Assembly: GCA_016744795.1 (NCBI GenBank)
Contig: JADGDR010000002.1
Location: 1-64,000 of the forward strand
Origin: Sulfurospirillum sp.
GTDB lineage: Bacteria > Campylobacterota > Campylobacteria > Campylobacterales > Sulfurospirillaceae
Direction of reading: 5' to 3'
Length of the DNA stretch: 64,000 nt
Shown in pieces: positions 47,672-58,834 of this stretch. Every line of letters starts with the position of its first letter. Positions within the stretch are counted from its first letter, which is position 1. Under the pieces are notes generated by a model that ran no database searches, had not been told where the DNA came from, and worked only from the letters and a program-made list of their open reading frames with translations. A program made the translations under genes and the position numbers.

Positions 47672-50600
47672 TTGAAAAACTTAAAAGACCTAATAAAACA
47701 AAGAGTAATGATTATTGATGGTGCTATGGGTACGCAGATACAAAATGCAGATATACCTGATTTGGCATGGAGTGGTTTAGAAGGTTGTAATGAGCTCTTA
47801 AACACTACATGTAAAGAAGTTATTTCAAATATACATAGGGGTTATTTGGAAGCTGGGGCTGACATTATTAAAACCAATACTTTTGGAGCTTTGCCTTGGG
47901 TTTTAGATGACTATGAGATTGGAAGCCGCACTTATGAATTGGCTTTAAATGGTGCAAAAATAGTAAAAGAAGTTTGTGAAGAGTTTAGTTCACCTGAAAA
48001 ACCTCGTTTTGTTGCTGGGGCAATGGGACCAGGAACCAAGTTACCATCTTTAGGACACATTACTTATGATGAGATGTATGAGGGTTATTGTGAGGCTGTA
48101 AAGGGTTTGATTGATGGGGGAGTTGATGTCTTTTTAATAGAGACTGCTCAAGACCCACTTCAAATAAAAGCAGCACTTCATGCAATGCAAGATATGAATA
48201 AAGAAAAAAATGTAAATATTCCCATAATGGTATCTGTTACGATTGAGCTAAGTGGAACAATGCTTATTGGGACTGATGCTATTACTATTTCAACTATTAT
48301 GGAACCATTTGATATTCTTAGCCTTGGGTTTAACTGCGGAACAGGACCAGAGCAAGTTAAAAAGCACGTTAAAACATTAAGTGAGGTTTGTAAGTTTCCC
48401 CTTAGTGTTCATGCAAATGCGGGTCTTCCTCAAAACAGAGGAGGGGTTACGTTTTACCCAATGCAACCCAAAGAGTTTACAGACTTACAAGAGAGCTTTT
48501 TGCAATTTGATGGGGTTTGTATATTAGGGGGTTGTTGTGGAACTACACCTGAGCATATAAAAATGCTTACATGCAGAGTAAAAGACATAACTCCAAAAGC
48601 TCCAATAGGACAATCACCTATGGCAATTGCTTCTTTGTTTGAAACAAGAGCCTTAAAACAAGACCCAGCACCATTTTTAATTGGTGAGCGTTCAAATGCA
48701 ACTGGTTCAAAAGCTTTTCGAGAGTTAATTTTGGCAGAAGATTACGATACATCTTTATCAGTTGCACAACAACAAGTAAGAAGTGGTGCTCATGGAATTG
48801 ATGTTAGTGTAGGTTTTGCAGGGCGTGATGAGAACAGAGATACCATAGAAGTTGTTGGAAGATATGTGCAAAAAATACTACTTCCTCTTATGCCAGATAC
48901 AACGCAAATTCCTGCACTAAAAACTGCACTTAAACTCATAGGTGGAAAGCCTATTATTAACTCTGTAAACCTTGAAGATGGTGAAGAAAAGTTTGACAAG
49001 GTATGTGCTTTAGCAAAAAGATTTGGTTGTGCTTTAGTTTGTCTAACCATAGATGAAGTAGGTATGGCTAAAACAAAAGATGACAAAATAAGAATTGCAC
49101 AGAGAATTTACGACCTTGCTACTAAACGTCATGGAATCAACCCTGAAAACTTGGTTTTTGATTTACTTACTTTTACTGTGGGAAGTGGTGATGCCCAGTA
49201 TCATAGAGCTGCAATAGAAGTCATAGAAGCTATTGGGGAGTTTAGTAAGATGCACCCTGAGGTTGGTTTTGTTCTTGGGGTTTCAAATATATCTTTTGGA
49301 TTAGCTAAAAATGCTCGTGAATACTTAAACTCTGTATTTTTGAATCATTGTGTTGAAGCTGGATTAAGTATGGCAATAGTAAATGTAAAAAACACACTTC
49401 CAATGCACAAGATAAGCGAAGAACAGCTAAAAGTTTGTGATGACTTACTTTTAAATCGTCGAGAAGAGGGTGATCCACTTTTTAAGTTTATAGATTATTT
49501 TTCAGATGTAAGTGAGCAAAAAGAGGAAGACGATGAGGTATATAATGCACTTAGTACCGAGGAAAAACTTGCTCATCTTCTCATAGATGGTGACAAAGAA
49601 CGAATTATGATACTTTTAGTGAGTGCAAAAGACGAAATTGCACCTGAAAAAATTGTAAATGAGATTTTGATAAATGCCATGAAAGTAGTAGGTGAGCTTT
49701 TTGGAAGTGGAAAGATGCAACTCCCTTTTGTACTTCAAAGTGCAGAGGTAATGAAAGCTAGTGTGGATTACTTGAATCCATTTTTGCCTAAAAAAAGCAA
49801 AGAAACAGAAACAACACTTATAATAGGAACTGTAAAAGGTGATGTGCATGATGTTGGTAAAAACCTTGTGGACATTATTCTTTCAAATAATGGTTTTAAA
49901 GTCATAAACATAGGCATAAAAGCAGATTTACAAGATTTTTTAACTGCTATGAAAGAGCATAAAGCAGATGCTCTTGGCATGAGTGGGCTTTTGGTCAAAT
50001 CAACAGCAGTTATGAAAGAGAACTTAGAAATGATGAGGTCAATGGGAATTGATATTCCAGTCATACTTGGCGGTGCTGCACTTAATGACAAGTTTGTTAA
50101 TGAGTTTTGTAGAGTCAATTATGATGGTCCAGTATTTTATTGTAAAGATGCTTTTGAAGGCATAACAGCCATGAGTCGCATTGAAGCTGGGGATTTTAAT
50201 ACAGATTTTGGAAGAGTAATTGTAGATGAAGAGATAGTTCAACTTAAAGAGAAAAAGAGAAAAATACCTCCTTATGAAGAGATAGAAATACCTGTTAGTG
50301 CCAATTCTATTCCTACACCTCCATTTTGGGGAAGAAAAAAACTTGAAGCTAATGTAAAAAGCATAGCTTATGAGTGGATAAATCACAAAATAATGTTTTC
50401 TCGTGCTTGGGGTTATAGTGGTAAAGGTATGAGTAAAGAGGAGAAGCAAAAACAAAGAGATAATGTCCTTTGGCCTCTTTATGAAAGACTTAAACGTGAT
50501 ATTGAAAAAATGGACTTGTTTGATCCTACAATCATATATGGTTATTATCCTTGTAGAAGTGAGCAAAACAGACTTCATATTCTTGATGAAAAAAGAGGGT

Positions 50601-51139
50601 ACTTTAGTGAAAGTGAAGTTAATCGTGAACCTTTACATGTAGACGATATAACCCATACCTTAGATTTTCCAAGACAAGGACGAAAGCCTTATCGATGTTT
50701 GAGTGATTACATACAAAGTGACAGAGATGATGTTGTTGCGTTTACTTGTGTGAGTGCTGGGGCTAAGTTTAGTGAGTATGAAAAAAAACTTTATTCTGAG
50801 GGGAATTTTCAAGAGTATCATCTGATTCACGGTATTAGCATAGAAATTGCAGAAGCATTAGCAGAGGTGGCACATAAACAAATAAGACTTGACCTTGGTA
50901 TTGCTGAAAAAGAAAAGCACGCATTAAAAGATGTACAGATGAGAGCATATACAGGGTGCAGATACTCGTTTGGATATGCAAGTTGCCCTGAACTTTCGGA
51001 TACAAAAGTTATATTTGATTTACTTAAACCTGAAGAGTTCGGAATTGAGCTTAGTGAGACTTTTCAAATTCATCCAGAACAAAGTACAACAGCCATAGTT
51101 ATGCACCACAGTAAAGCACTATATTTTAATGTAGATTAA
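47672..51139 (+). CDS. metH: Cobalamin-dependent methionine synthase
   Basis: 1155 residues from a TTG start. Four modules: homocysteine-binding (1-320; zinc Cys in CILGGCCGTTPEH), methyl-THF-binding (about 335-600; LIGERSNATGSKAFRELI), B12-binding (about 620-870; VKGDVHDVGKN with the cobalt-coordinating His), and AdoMet reactivation (about 900-1155; RAYTGCRYSFGYASCPEL). It methylates homocysteine with methyl-THF. Palindromes at 47806 (TTCKEV) and 50634 (PLHVDD) fall in variable stretches. Confidence 0.98.
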   Translation: MKNLKDLIKQRVMIIDGAMGTQIQNADIPDLAWSGLEGCNELLNTTCKEVISNIHRGYLEAGADIIKTNTFGALPWVLDDYEIGSRTYELALNGAKIVKEVCEEFSSPEKPRFVAGAMGPGTKLPSLGHITYDEMYEGYCEAVKGLIDGGVDVFLIETAQDPLQIKAALHAMQDMNKEKNVNIPIMVSVTIELSGTMLIGTDAITISTIMEPFDILSLGFNCGTGPEQVKKHVKTLSEVCKFPLSVHANAGLPQNRGGVTFYPMQPKEFTDLQESFLQFDGVCILGGCCGTTPEHIKMLTCRVKDITPKAPIGQSPMAIASLFETRALKQDPAPFLIGERSNATGSKAFRELILAEDYDTSLSVAQQQVRSGAHGIDVSVGFAGRDENRDTIEVVGRYVQKILLPLMPDTTQIPALKTALKLIGGKPIINSVNLEDGEEKFDKVCALAKRFGCALVCLTIDEVGMAKTKDDKIRIAQRIYDLATKRHGINPENLVFDLLTFTVGSGDAQYHRAAIEVIEAIGEFSKMHPEVGFVLGVSNISFGLAKNAREYLNSVFLNHCVEAGLSMAIVNVKNTLPMHKISEEQLKVCDDLLLNRREEGDPLFKFIDYFSDVSEQKEEDDEVYNALSTEEKLAHLLIDGDKERIMILLVSAKDEIAPEKIVNEILINAMKVVGELFGSGKMQLPFVLQSAEVMKASVDYLNPFLPKKSKETETTLIIGTVKGDVHDVGKNLVDIILSNNGFKVINIGIKADLQDFLTAMKEHKADALGMSGLLVKSTAVMKENLEMMRSMGIDIPVILGGAALNDKFVNEFCRVNYDGPVFYCKDAFEGITAMSRIEAGDFNTDFGRVIVDEEIVQLKEKKRKIPPYEEIEIPVSANSIPTPPFWGRKKLEANVKSIAYEWINHKIMFSRAWGYSGKGMSKEEKQKQRDNVLWPLYERLKRDIEKMDLFDPTIIYGYYPCRSEQNRLHILDEKRGYFSESEVNREPLHVDDITHTLDFPRQGRKPYRCLSDYIQSDRDDVVAFTCVSAGAKFSEYEKKLYSEGNFQEYHLIHGISIEIAEALAEVAHKQIRLDLGIAEKEKHALKDVQMRAYTGCRYSFGYASCPELSDTKVIFDLLKPEEFGIELSETFQIHPEQSTTAIVMHHSKALYFNVD

Positions 51140-51140
51140 T

Positions 51141-51173
51141 CTTTACATGTAAGGATTTTCCTTACATGTAAAG
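51141..51173. terminator. Double-palindrome hairpin, bidirectional terminator between metH and oppF
   Basis: CTTTACATGTAAGGA-TTT-TCCTTACATGTAAAG is a perfect 15-bp stem with a 3-base loop, made of two inverted TACATGTA elements. It fills almost the whole gap between the convergent stops (51139 and 51180), so it can terminate both transcripts. Confidence 0.75.
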
Positions 51174-51179
51174 AAGTTA

Positions 51180-52160
51180 TTAAAAGTTAAAACAGCTTAA
51201 TGTATGTTTGTCATTTATGGTAGTAATCTCAGGTTTACTAATTGAGCATTTATCTATTACTTTAGGGCATCTTGTCCTAAAAACACAGCCGCTTGGTGGG
51301 TTTATAGGAGAAGGTAAATCACCATCTAAGAAATCAATTTTTTTGTTTTTTTCTCTTTTGGGATCAGCTACCGGAACTGCTGAGATAAGAGCTTTATTGT
51401 ATGGATGAAGTGGGTTATTAAATAACTCATTTTTCTCTGCCATTTCAACAAAATTTCCTAGGTAAATTACAAGAATTTTGTGAGAAATATGTTTTACAAC
51501 TGAAAGGTCATGAGAGATAAAGATAAGTGTTAAATTCATCTCTTTTTGAAGTTCCATAAGCAAGTTTGTAACTTGAGCTTGAATTGAAACATCTAATGCA
51601 CTAACAGGTTCATCACAGATTATAAGCTTTGGTTCAGTTATGAGCGCACGAGCAATTCCTATTCTTTGACATTGACCACCAGAAAACTCATGAGGGTATC
51701 TGTTGATTACATTTGGAAGTAGTCCAACTTTTGTCATTGTCTGTAAAACTTTTTCTTTTCTCTGTTTTTTATTCATTTTTGGGAAAAAAGATAAAAGAGG
51801 CTCAGCAATAATATCACCAACGTTCATTCTAGGATCAAGTGAAGCTAAAGGATCTTGAAAAATCATCTGCATGTCTTTTTTCAGAAGCCATTTCTCTTCT
51901 TTACTTATGTTGGTTAAATTTTTTCCTTCAAAAAAGATTTTACCACTTGTAGTAGGAACAAGGTCTATGATAGCTCGAGCAAGAGTTGATTTTCCACATC
52001 CAGATTCACCAACTATACCGAGAGTCTCTCCTTGTTTAATTTCAAAACTAATGTCATCTACTGCTTTTAGTTTATCATATCCAAAATCAAATAGATGTTT
52101 GTTTGATTTTATGTTGAATTGTACCTTTAGATTTTCTACTTTTAATATAATTTCACTCAT
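51180..52160 (-). CDS. oppF: Oligopeptide ABC transporter ATP-binding protein
   Basis: 326 residues from ATG 52160, preceded by AAGGT and overlapping the oppD stop (ATGAGTGA); a longer frame to 52205 would run into oppD. Walker A GESGCGKSTLARAI, signature FSGGQCQRIGIARAL, Walker B LIICDEPVSALDVS, and the C-terminal oligopeptide/dipeptide cysteine domain (GCVFRTRCP) are present. Cytoplasmic ATPase partner of OppD. Confidence 0.95.
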   Translation of the reverse strand: MSEIILKVENLKVQFNIKSNKHLFDFGYDKLKAVDDISFEIKQGETLGIVGESGCGKSTLARAIIDLVPTTSGKIFFEGKNLTNISKEEKWLLKKDMQMIFQDPLASLDPRMNVGDIIAEPLLSFFPKMNKKQRKEKVLQTMTKVGLLPNVINRYPHEFSGGQCQRIGIARALITEPKLIICDEPVSALDVSIQAQVTNLLMELQKEMNLTLIFISHDLSVVKHISHKILVIYLGNFVEMAEKNELFNNPLHPYNKALISAVPVADPKREKNKKIDFLDGDLPSPINPPSGCVFRTRCPKVIDKCSISKPEITTINDKHTLSCFNF

Positions 52161-53121
52161 ATCTGACCTTTTCAAAATAACATGCTCTTTGTCTACTATT
52201 TTCAAAGTTTACTAAATCAGGGCGGCTAAGTTTACACTCAGTCATCGCGGCGTAGCATCTTTCTTCAAAAGGGCAACCAATAGGCAAGTTTAGTATGTTT
52301 GGAGGATTCCCAGGAATAGTTTCAAGTATCTCAATATTTTCCGTTAGTTTGGGAATTGATTTTAGTAGAGACGTTGTATATGGGTGAGCTGGTTCATAAA
52401 ATATATTCTCTACACTTCCATATTCCATAGTTTGACCTGCATACATAACCATTACATTGTCACACAATCCTGCAACAACACCTAAATCATGAGTGATAAG
52501 GATAATAGCTGTATTGAAATCATTTTTTAATTCATGCATAAGTTGTAGTATTTGTGCTTGTACCGTAACATCAAGTGCAGTTGTTGGCTCATCAGCTATA
52601 AGTAGTTTTGGACGACACAGAAGTGACATAGCTATCATAAGACGTTGTCTCATACCACCTGAGAATTCATGAGGGTACATATTCATTCTCTTTTTTGCTT
52701 CAGGAATTTTAACAGCATCAAGCATTTGTAGCGATTGAGCATAAGCTTCTTCTTTACTGCTTCCCTTGTGTTTAATTAAAACTTCCATAAGTTGTTTTTC
52801 AACTTTCATATATGGGTTTAATGAAGTCATTGGATCTTGAAAAATCATTGCAATCTGTTCTGCTCTGATGTGGTTTAACTCTTTTTCAGGGAGGTTGAGT
52901 ATTTCATTGCCATCAAATTTTACACTACCTCTTGCGTGACCATTTTTGGCAAGTAGCCCCATAATAGAAAAAACACTTTGGCTTTTTCCACTTCCACTTT
53001 CACCAACTATGCCAAGCGTTTGCCCAGCATCTACTGAAAAATTCAGCTCATTTACTGCTCTAACTACTCCATCATGAGTGTCAAAGTCTACACTTAAATT
53101 TTTTACTTCTAATAGACTCAT
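52153..53121 (-). CDS. oppD: Oligopeptide ABC transporter ATP-binding protein
   Basis: 322 residues. Walker A GESGSGKSQSVFSIM, signature FSGGMRQRLMIAMSL, Walker B LLIADEPTTALDV, C-terminal Cys cluster GCPFEERCYA. It energises peptide import together with OppF. Starts 8 bases after oppC. Confidence 0.95.
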   Translation of the reverse strand: MSLLEVKNLSVDFDTHDGVVRAVNELNFSVDAGQTLGIVGESGSGKSQSVFSIMGLLAKNGHARGSVKFDGNEILNLPEKELNHIRAEQIAMIFQDPMTSLNPYMKVEKQLMEVLIKHKGSSKEEAYAQSLQMLDAVKIPEAKKRMNMYPHEFSGGMRQRLMIAMSLLCRPKLLIADEPTTALDVTVQAQILQLMHELKNDFNTAIILITHDLGVVAGLCDNVMVMYAGQTMEYGSVENIFYEPAHPYTTSLLKSIPKLTENIEILETIPGNPPNILNLPIGCPFEERCYAAMTECKLSRPDLVNFENSRQRACYFEKVRYE

Positions 53122-56776: not shown

Positions 56777-57382
56777 ATGGTGAAAAAAATACTTCTTATA
56801 AATTGTGCTCATCATACTAAAAGTATAACAGACCAGATGATGTGTGAAATTTCTATGCATATAGCAAATAGTGGCTGTAATTACGAGATGCTTAATATAC
56901 GGGAGCAGGAGTTTACTGCTTGTATAAAATGCAGAGTATGTACACAATGTGATGGTGAATTACCAGGAGAATGTATCAACAAAGACAGAATGAACGATAT
57001 AGTAAATAAGATAGAAGAGAGCGATGGTTATATCATAGCAAGTCCAGCAAAATTTCAAGCAACAGCTACTTTTTTTAAATGTTTTATGGAAAGGCTCATA
57101 GTTTATTCGTATTGGCCCTATGGTGCAAAAAAAGCCCAACACATAAAAAAAGATACTACAAAAAAAGCAATTTTAATTAGTGCTTTTCCCATACCAGATA
57201 TGATTGCTAAAATATATTCAAAAACAATGGATCAGTTAAAAGTTTGTGCAAGACTTATAGGTGCACAAACTATAGATACAATTTATGTCGGTATGGCTCC
57301 AATTAGTGCAAAAAGAAAACTAACACAAAAAGAGAAAAAACAAGCAAAAGAGGTAAGTGAAAAAATTTTAGATAGTTTGTAG
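56777..57382 (+). CDS. Iron-sulfur flavoprotein / NADPH-dependent FMN reductase family
   Basis: 201 residues with a flavodoxin-like fold (KILLINCAHHTKSITDQMM). A cysteine cluster CIKCRVCTQCDGELPGEC is compatible with the compact Fe-S site of Isf-type flavoproteins, and IIASPAKFQATATFFKCFMERL is the FMN phosphate/ring region of the WrbA/FMN-reductase superfamily. It probably transfers electrons to small molecules. It converges on hcp, and both may act in oxidative or nitrosative stress, which is inference. Confidence 0.75.
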   Translation: MVKKILLINCAHHTKSITDQMMCEISMHIANSGCNYEMLNIREQEFTACIKCRVCTQCDGELPGECINKDRMNDIVNKIEESDGYIIASPAKFQATATFFKCFMERLIVYSYWPYGAKKAQHIKKDTTKKAILISAFPIPDMIAKIYSKTMDQLKVCARLIGAQTIDTIYVGMAPISAKRKLTQKEKKQAKEVSEKILDSL

Positions 57383-57414
57383 TTTACATGTAGAGGAAAA
57401 CCTCTACATGTAAA
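57383..57414. terminator. Double-palindrome hairpin between convergent genes
   Basis: TTTACATGTAGAGG-AAAA-CCTCTACATGTAAA is a perfect 14-bp stem with a 4-base loop, made of two inverted TACATGTA elements. It begins at the base after the flavoprotein stop and ends 8 bases before the hcp stop, so it likely terminates both. Confidence 0.75.
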
Positions 57415-57421
57415 GAGAGTA

Positions 57422-58762
57422 TTACTTTAAAAGTAATGCGTTTAAATCACTCTCATAATCTTTCATATTTGAAAGATGAAGGTTAAAGTTTTCATCTAAA
57501 AAGTTAAATATATCTTCATTTACAAATTCTGGAGGTTTTGGTCCAAGATAGATATCTTTTATGCCTAAACTAAATAGTCCAAGTAAAATAATAACAGCTT
57601 TTTGCTCCATCCATGAAAGAACAATAGCAATAGGAAGGTCATTTACAGGAACATTTAAAGCGTTACTAATAGCAGATGCAATATGAACAGCACCATTACT
57701 ATCGTTACATTGTCCTAGGTCTAAATAACGAGGAATTCCAGTTCCTTCAATTTCACCAAAATCAATATCATTGAATCTAAATTTACCACAACTTGAAGTT
57801 ACTATAATACAGTCTTTAGGAAGATTTTCTGCAATATGTCTGTAGTATTCTCCCGCTTTTCCAGGTGCATCACAACCAGCAATTACAAAAAATTGTTTAA
57901 TTTTACCTGCTTTAACTGCGTCAAGAATTTGAGGTGCAAGGGTTAAAATGGTTTTGTAATGATGACCAGTTTGAAGAGTTTCATTAGAGTTAAAAGCATC
58001 TACATTTGGAAGAGCTAGAGTTTGAGCTATTATTTCATCAAAATTATCATTAACTATTTTTTTACCTTCTTCAATACCAACAATATCGTAAGTATAAAGT
58101 CTATCTACATAAGTAGAACTTTTTTTAGGTGGGACAATACAGTTTGTATTTACAATAATGCTTCCTGGCCACTCTTCAAATAGTTTAGTTTGGTCAAACC
58201 AAGCTTTACCAATGTTACCTTTAAGGTGTTTAAATTTTCTTAGTTCTGGGTAACCATGAGCTGGTAACATCTCTGAGTGAGTATAGATATTAATACCTTT
58301 TCCCTCAGTATCTTTAAGCAGTTTATAGAACATATCTAAGTTATGACCACTTACTAATATAGCTTTTCCTTCTGCTTTGTTTTGAGAAACAGTTACAGGT
58401 GTTGGAATACCAAGCTTTGAAGTGTGAGTATCGCTTAGAGTATTCATCATAGTTACTCCTGCATTACCTATTTTCATAAGTTGAGCTATATGGTCATCAA
58501 AATTAAAGTTTGAGTTTGTAAGTGTGAAATAAAGAGTTTTAGCTATAACATCATCTACTTCTTTTGTATTTGCACCAAATTGATTTGCATGAGTTCTGTA
58601 AGCACTAAGACCTTTTAAACCGTAAATCATCATATCTTGTAGATTAGCAAGATTTTTATCTTTACCACATGTTCCTACTTCTTGACCTTTTGAACCACAT
58701 CCACCTGCCATGCTCATTGAGCATTGATTACATAACATACTTAAAGTTGTATTTTCTGACAT
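57422..58762 (-). CDS. hcp: Hybrid cluster protein (hydroxylamine/NO reductase), short form
   Basis: 446 residues from ATG 58762 (GGAGATAAT before it); an upstream frame to 58834 would overlap the regulatory site. N-terminal Fe-S cysteines CNQCSMSMAGGC...GTC, and hybrid-cluster ligands in VNTNCIVPP, FVIAGCDAPGKAGEYY, VTSSCGKFRF and DLGQCNDSNGA are visible. Typical Hcp proteins have about 550 residues; this one lacks about 100 after the N-terminal cluster, as in class III Hcp. It reduces hydroxylamine or NO in the cytosol. Confidence 0.94.
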   Translation of the reverse strand: MSENTTLSMLCNQCSMSMAGGCGSKGQEVGTCGKDKNLANLQDMMIYGLKGLSAYRTHANQFGANTKEVDDVIAKTLYFTLTNSNFNFDDHIAQLMKIGNAGVTMMNTLSDTHTSKLGIPTPVTVSQNKAEGKAILVSGHNLDMFYKLLKDTEGKGINIYTHSEMLPAHGYPELRKFKHLKGNIGKAWFDQTKLFEEWPGSIIVNTNCIVPPKKSSTYVDRLYTYDIVGIEEGKKIVNDNFDEIIAQTLALPNVDAFNSNETLQTGHHYKTILTLAPQILDAVKAGKIKQFFVIAGCDAPGKAGEYYRHIAENLPKDCIIVTSSCGKFRFNDIDFGEIEGTGIPRYLDLGQCNDSNGAVHIASAISNALNVPVNDLPIAIVLSWMEQKAVIILLGLFSLGIKDIYLGPKPPEFVNEDIFNFLDENFNLHLSNMKDYESDLNALLLK

Positions 58763-58792
58763 ATTATCTCCGATTTTTAAATTATGAGTGAA

Positions 58793-58798
58793 ATTATA
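58793..58798 (-). promoter_or_regulatory. -10 box of hcp
   Basis: TATAAT on the minus strand, 31 bases before the ATG; transcription would start near 58786. Confidence 0.7.
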
Positions 58799-58820
58799 TA
58801 TGAGAATTTTAAGCAAAGCC

Positions 58821-58834
58821 TTGATTGTCCTCAA
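58821..58834 (-). promoter_or_regulatory. FNR/CRP-family binding site upstream of hcp
   Basis: TTGAT-TGTC-CTCAA differs from the TTGAT-N4-ATCAA consensus at one base and lies in the larger repeat CCTTGA-N6-TCAAGG. Its centre (58827.5) is exactly 41.5 bases upstream of the start predicted from the -10 box, the class II activator position. Candidate regulators are FNR-, NssR- or Dnr-type proteins responding to oxygen or NO. Confidence 0.75.

Follow-up and report, generated by a model that had tools for sequence, protein, structure and literature searches.

The metH/oppF locus

The window (the whole stretch of DNA analysed, 64 kb) contains two convergent genes, metH and an oppF-type gene, whose short intergenic gap is almost entirely occupied by a hairpin. 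The metH product carries the S-methyl_trans, Pterin_bind, B12-binding and Met_synt_B12 Pfam domains, and its best matches, among named genomes, are in Sulfurospirillum arcachonense. The oppF-type product carries the ABC_tran and oligo_HPY domains, and its reading frame stops at 51180. A second convergent gap of the window has the same organization. The features are the following.

47672..51139, + strand: metH, cobalamin-dependent methionine synthase, left convergent gene (ORF, Pfam)
51140..51174, no strand: hairpin with a 16-bp perfect stem, a TTT loop and two TACATGTA copies (sequence, fold, z-score)
51144..51151, no strand: first TACATGTA copy (motif count and relatives' metH 3' ends)
51163..51170, no strand: second TACATGTA copy (motif count)
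51180..52205, - strand: oppF/dppF-type oligopeptide ABC transporter ATPase, right convergent gene (ORF, Pfam; start codon uncertain)
56777..57382, + strand: flavodoxin-like/FMN reductase gene, left of the second hairpin (ORF, Pfam)
57383..57414, no strand: TACATGTA-pair hairpin with a 14-bp stem, an AAAA loop and the spacer GAGG/CCTC (sequence, fold)
57422..58834, - strand: Prismane (hybrid cluster protein) family gene, right of the second hairpin (ORF, Pfam)

The sequence from 51140 to 51174 is TCTTTACATGTAAGGA-TTT-TCCTTACATGTAAAGA, with a loop of 3 nt. It begins directly 3' of the metH stop codon and ends 5 nt from that of oppF. A first-pass annotation of this DNA had described a perfect 15-bp stem at 51141-51173 that fills nearly all of the gap. 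The stem is indeed perfect and the hairpin does take up 35 of the 40 bases, but the pairing extends one pair further, to 16 bp. The same annotation spoke of two inverted palindromes. Two TACATGTA copies are present; however, this 8-mer is its own reverse complement, so that every pair of copies can be read as 'direct' as well as 'inverted', and the term is uninformative for the core. The extra information of the hairpin therefore sits only in the AGGA/TCCT spacer and in the outer flanks, both of which are complementary. Folded as RNA, the segment reaches -20.9 kcal/mol on either strand, and the region 51110-51200 has a z-score of -5.9 compared to dinucleotide shuffles. An Rfam search at the site returned sub-threshold matches only, which we regard as chance. 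The second convergent gap (57383-57421) is likewise filled by a TACATGTA-pair hairpin (-19.8/-20.2 kcal/mol on the two strands), with a different spacer.

Conservation of the hairpin itself was considered and rejected. The nearest relative, G037, has a single TACATGTA at an identical distance (+4) from the metH stop (L020 reads identically here), and the other relatives have no copy; among the relatives compared, the paired hairpin was seen only in this genome. Several of the motif-less relatives possess an unrelated hairpin at the metH 3' end (G036 and G003, and by eye G009, G004 and G040). Judged from these 3' ends, the individual metH/oppF hairpin is young; the family as a whole shares the habit of putting such hairpins where genes end.

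Abundance and distribution of TACATGTA among genomes

In the window, 41 copies of TACATGTA were observed, compared to 1.6 expected, and the 2.68-Mb genome contains 1297, compared to 74 for the reversed-palindrome control. The extended consensus is CTTTACATGTAAAG. The motif is nearly exact, its one-mismatch neighbours showing no enrichment (median observed/expected 0.6 to 1.0).

Among 44 genomes of the Sulfurospirillum-type family, most had 300 to 1700 copies; low counts were found in G010 (28, compared to 25 for the control), G021, G001 and G006. Among 150 genomes of the order, counts in those from other families were near the control level except in G139 (608) and G161 (611). These two genomes (L270-L289 and L230-L249) belong to one family that is not of the Sulfurospirillum type, and the remaining sampled members of that family are motif-poor, which suggests a separate gain of the motif there. 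TACATGTA is a lineage-wide, highly iterated palindrome; a search of the open-access literature found no paper naming it in Campylobacterota.

Position of the motif relative to genes

Gene calls came from a home-made hexamer caller, run on 856-859 kb of this genome (about a third of it) and on 400 kb of each of four others. Convergent gaps of this genome had 4.9 copies of TACATGTA per kb, and tandem gaps had 1.35 once a CRISPR array containing 45 copies was removed; the values were 0.69 for divergent gaps and 0.38 for coding DNA. Densities in G012 and G017 were similar, the three-genome ranges being 4.7 to 4.9 per kb for convergent gaps, 0.7 to 1.1 for divergent gaps and 0.38 to 0.45 for coding DNA. 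The gap densities of G139 are biased upwards, since its stretches were chosen around listed pairs. The motif peaks 0 to 40 nt after stop codons: in the first 20 nt, its density was 1.9 per kb in this genome, 4.5 in G012 and 4.2 in G017, and the last 20-100 nt of genes had 0.4 to 0.5.

This distribution could have a neutral origin, in which the motif builds up between genes because it is least harmful there, and near-palindromes become perfect through template switching between neighbouring copies. Overall density is indeed higher in non-coding DNA. Moreover, unpaired copies are likewise enriched past stops (1.2 to 3.3 per kb at 0 to 20 nt), so that part of the 3'-end signal may reflect where the motif is tolerated. 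Divergent gaps serve as a control for mere tolerance: they are also non-coding, yet they have the low densities given above and almost no hairpins.

Close pairs and complementary spacers

Pairs of TACATGTA spaced by 3 to 30 nt numbered 79 in the genome, whereas the control gave a single pair and random placement of the 1297 sites would give approximately 17, by simple arithmetic. Pairing is no automatic result of abundance: G139, of another family, shows the pattern again with 34 pairs, mostly perfect hairpins, but G161, with as many sites (611 compared to 608), has only 3 pairs and no clear hairpins.

Convergent gaps were surveyed for pairs in stretches of three genomes, and compared to the same sites placed at random within gaps. 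In this genome, 6 convergent gaps held a pair, compared to 1.6 for random placement (P = 0.0002); in two relatives, the values were 4 compared to 1.6 (P = 0.024) and 4 compared to 1.8 (P = 0.046). Such a survey for inverted pairs had been named as a check in the first-pass annotation, and the enrichment it looked for is present in all three sampled genomes. By context, 43 pairs whose neighbourhoods were mostly picked for their hairpin-like look, regardless of gene direction, fell into convergent gaps (18), tandem gaps (18), coding DNA (4) and unassigned places (3), with none in divergent gaps. A single hairpin pair of G017 was assigned to a divergent gap.

A pair was scored as hairpin-forming if the loop on closure did not exceed 8. 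This was the case for 29 of the 37 pairs at gene 3' ends, compared to 6 of the 30 in coding DNA (P = 2e-6). The inner spacer complementarity was also higher in the 3' intergenic pairs than in coding pairs (mean 2.5 compared to 1.0 bp, P = 1e-5). Spacers vary from place to place while their complementarity is kept (AGGA/TCCT, GAGG/CCTC, GACA/TGTC, GGCA/TGCC). G010, with motif counts no higher than the control, retains one perfect pair, and it lies in a convergent gap, which is what one would predict for a hairpin that is useful in its own right.

The many perfectly complementary spacers are what template switching would produce, and in this respect they agree with a neutral by-product. Taken with the scarcity of hairpins in divergent gaps and the disparity in pairing between G161 and G139, we nevertheless hold this explanation to be very improbable. 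Another possibility is that a protein binds the motif as DNA, the pairs in convergent gaps being strong sites or polymerase roadblocks and the RNA hairpin a by-product of the palindrome. A palindromic and nearly exact 8-mer whose one-mismatch neighbours are not enriched is suggestive of such a site, as is the enrichment of single copies after stops. Spacers that differ in sequence but remain complementary are not predicted by DNA binding, however, and we regard it as rather improbable.

A proposed role of the hairpins at transcript ends

The first-pass annotation had interpreted the metH/oppF hairpin as a bidirectional terminator. This proposal is only partly supported: a hairpin predicted on both strands and the enrichment of pairs in convergent gaps speak for it, the T content after paired hairpins and the terminator scan against it. 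The stable hairpin is situated just downstream of the genes, as in intrinsic terminators, but no U-tract follows the stem: the 8 nt on its 3' side are AGTTATTA on the + strand and TTAATCTA on the - strand, with 4 T each. The outer 3' arm ends with the purine-rich AAAGA. The consensus terminator scan called none at the site, and nothing terminator-like near 51140 on the relevant strands, and the TACATGTA-pair hairpin is the sole terminator candidate near either the metH or the oppF stop.

The same holds for paired hairpins in general, which showed no T enrichment on their 3' side (mean 3.68 T in the best 7-nt window, compared to a background of 3.65, P = 0.89). Motif-free hairpins had 4.29 T in the best 7-nt window, and the paired motif hairpins were lower (P = 0.04), although the two strands of one hairpin were counted separately, so that these numbers are not fully independent. 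A few single-copy hairpins centred on the motif do carry a T-run. At C9 179461 (G000, L125), for example, a single TACATGTA centres a GC-rich hairpin that is followed by a T-run, CCCCTTTACATGTAAAGGGGTTTTTT. In this second architecture, the motif occupies the tip of what looks like a canonical terminator.

Judged by its sequence, the metH/oppF hairpin does not, then, look like an intrinsic terminator. That the pairs nevertheless act as ordinary bidirectional Rho-independent terminators made of uptake-type sequences, like those of Neisseria and Haemophilus, appears unlikely. The strong hairpin immediately past both stops, the enrichment of pairs in convergent gaps and the few motif hairpins with T-runs all point towards such terminators, but T content after paired hairpins is at background and below that of other hairpins, the AAAGA-ending arm would yield a purine-rich rather than a U-rich RNA-DNA hybrid, and the terminator scanner was negative.

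A role at transcript ends for the TACATGTA-pair hairpins is nonetheless supported by their position and predicted structure. Our preferred reading, to which we assign a probability of roughly 55% on the basis of sequence, is that TACATGTA is an iterated palindrome, similar to HIP1 or to uptake signal sequences (USS), that would have been co-opted as a two-way 3'-end hairpin acting without U-tract termination. Two copies with a complementary spacer would be selected at gene 3' ends, above all between convergent genes, and a strong hairpin would form in the transcript from either strand. Such a hairpin would most likely define where the mRNAs of both convergent genes end, by pausing RNA polymerase, by stopping 3'-to-5' exonucleases, or both. 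This pause or block would follow Rho-dependent or non-canonical termination, rather than U-tract intrinsic termination. The primary role of TACATGTA may be that of an uptake signal or of another genome-wide recognition sequence. A broader proposal, which we put forward tentatively and at less than even odds, is that TACATGTA constitutes an unrecognised genome-wide self-recognition palindrome of Sulfurospirillum-type bacteria, separately gained in another family of Campylobacterales, and paired at gene 3' ends as two-way hairpins that would set transcript ends without a U-tract.

Comparison with known systems

What is known of uptake sequences comes mostly from two bacterial groups, and of HIP1 from cyanobacteria. 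A comparable iterated motif in a further phylum, gained and lost in a clear manner among relatives, would make it possible to test by comparison and by simple transformation assays what drives such motifs: G010 and G021 are poor within their family, while G139 and G161 are rich among poor relatives. The paired hairpins would also provide a clear instance of 3' ends formed in the absence of a U-tract.

Bidirectional intrinsic terminators between convergent genes resemble the metH/oppF structure in that a symmetric hairpin serves both strands in a short gap. They possess A-tract and U-tract flanks, however, which the metH/oppF hairpin lacks.

In Neisseria and Pasteurellaceae, terminators made of uptake sequences were found as hairpins with T-tails (Kingsford 2007, PMC1852404). 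As in the USS and DUS hairpin terminators of Pasteurellaceae and Neisseriaceae (PMC1852404), a short motif is present here in hundreds to more than 1000 copies, close motif pairs form hairpins after genes, and there is an apparent co-option at transcript ends. TACATGTA shares with DUS and USS both an extreme and exact over-representation and the close-pair hairpins at gene ends. It differs in being itself a palindrome, and in that its paired hairpins have no T-tail above background. The uptake-sequence analogy drawn in the first-pass annotation consequently applies to the reuse as pairs at gene ends and fails for the T-tail of the Neisseria and Haemophilus terminators. The pair enrichment in convergent gaps and the hairpins at gene 3' ends make the parallel in reuse a fair one.

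An uptake role for TACATGTA is plausible. A ComEC domain was found in 38 of 40 genomes, whether these were rich or poor in the motif, and therefore does not discriminate. Spacing between copies has a coefficient of variation of 1.36, and gene content was read for the two longest motif-free stretches. The longest (G000:C7 ~182.3-206.6 kb, L109-L110) spans 24 kb with 26% GC and no TACATGTA; it contains sugar-nucleotide and MBOAT-type genes, in the manner of a surface-polysaccharide-type locus, and looks recently acquired. Over-representation, exactness, 3'-end pairing and this motif-free polysaccharide-type locus would together be compatible with an uptake sequence.

TACATGTA is also similar to cyanobacterial HIP1 (PMC4390886), being an 8-bp palindrome with hundreds of copies per Mb that is lineage-restricted, with exceptional low-count genomes. 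The sequences differ, HIP1 being GCGATCGC. HIP1 has been tied to orphan methylases (PMC4390886), whereas none of the three Pfam DNA-methylase families considered here (MethyltransfD12, N6_N4_Mtase and C5 DNA_methylase) tracks TACATGTA, and the motif-rich G161 has none of them. A simple HIP1-like methylase link was thus rejected, on evidence that covers these three families only. At L107:11470-14390 (G000:C7 ~151470-154380) lies a CRISPR-like array with 45 repeats at 66-bp intervals, and its repeat, GTTATAGCTTCCGTTCCTACATGTAAATGCTATAAT, contains TACATGTA. This is a further likeness to HIP1, which occurs within CRISPR repeats too (PMC6604393), a Synechocystis repeat being a known case. Relative to HIP1, what is notable about TACATGTA is that its copies pair up as hairpins at the 3' ends of genes.
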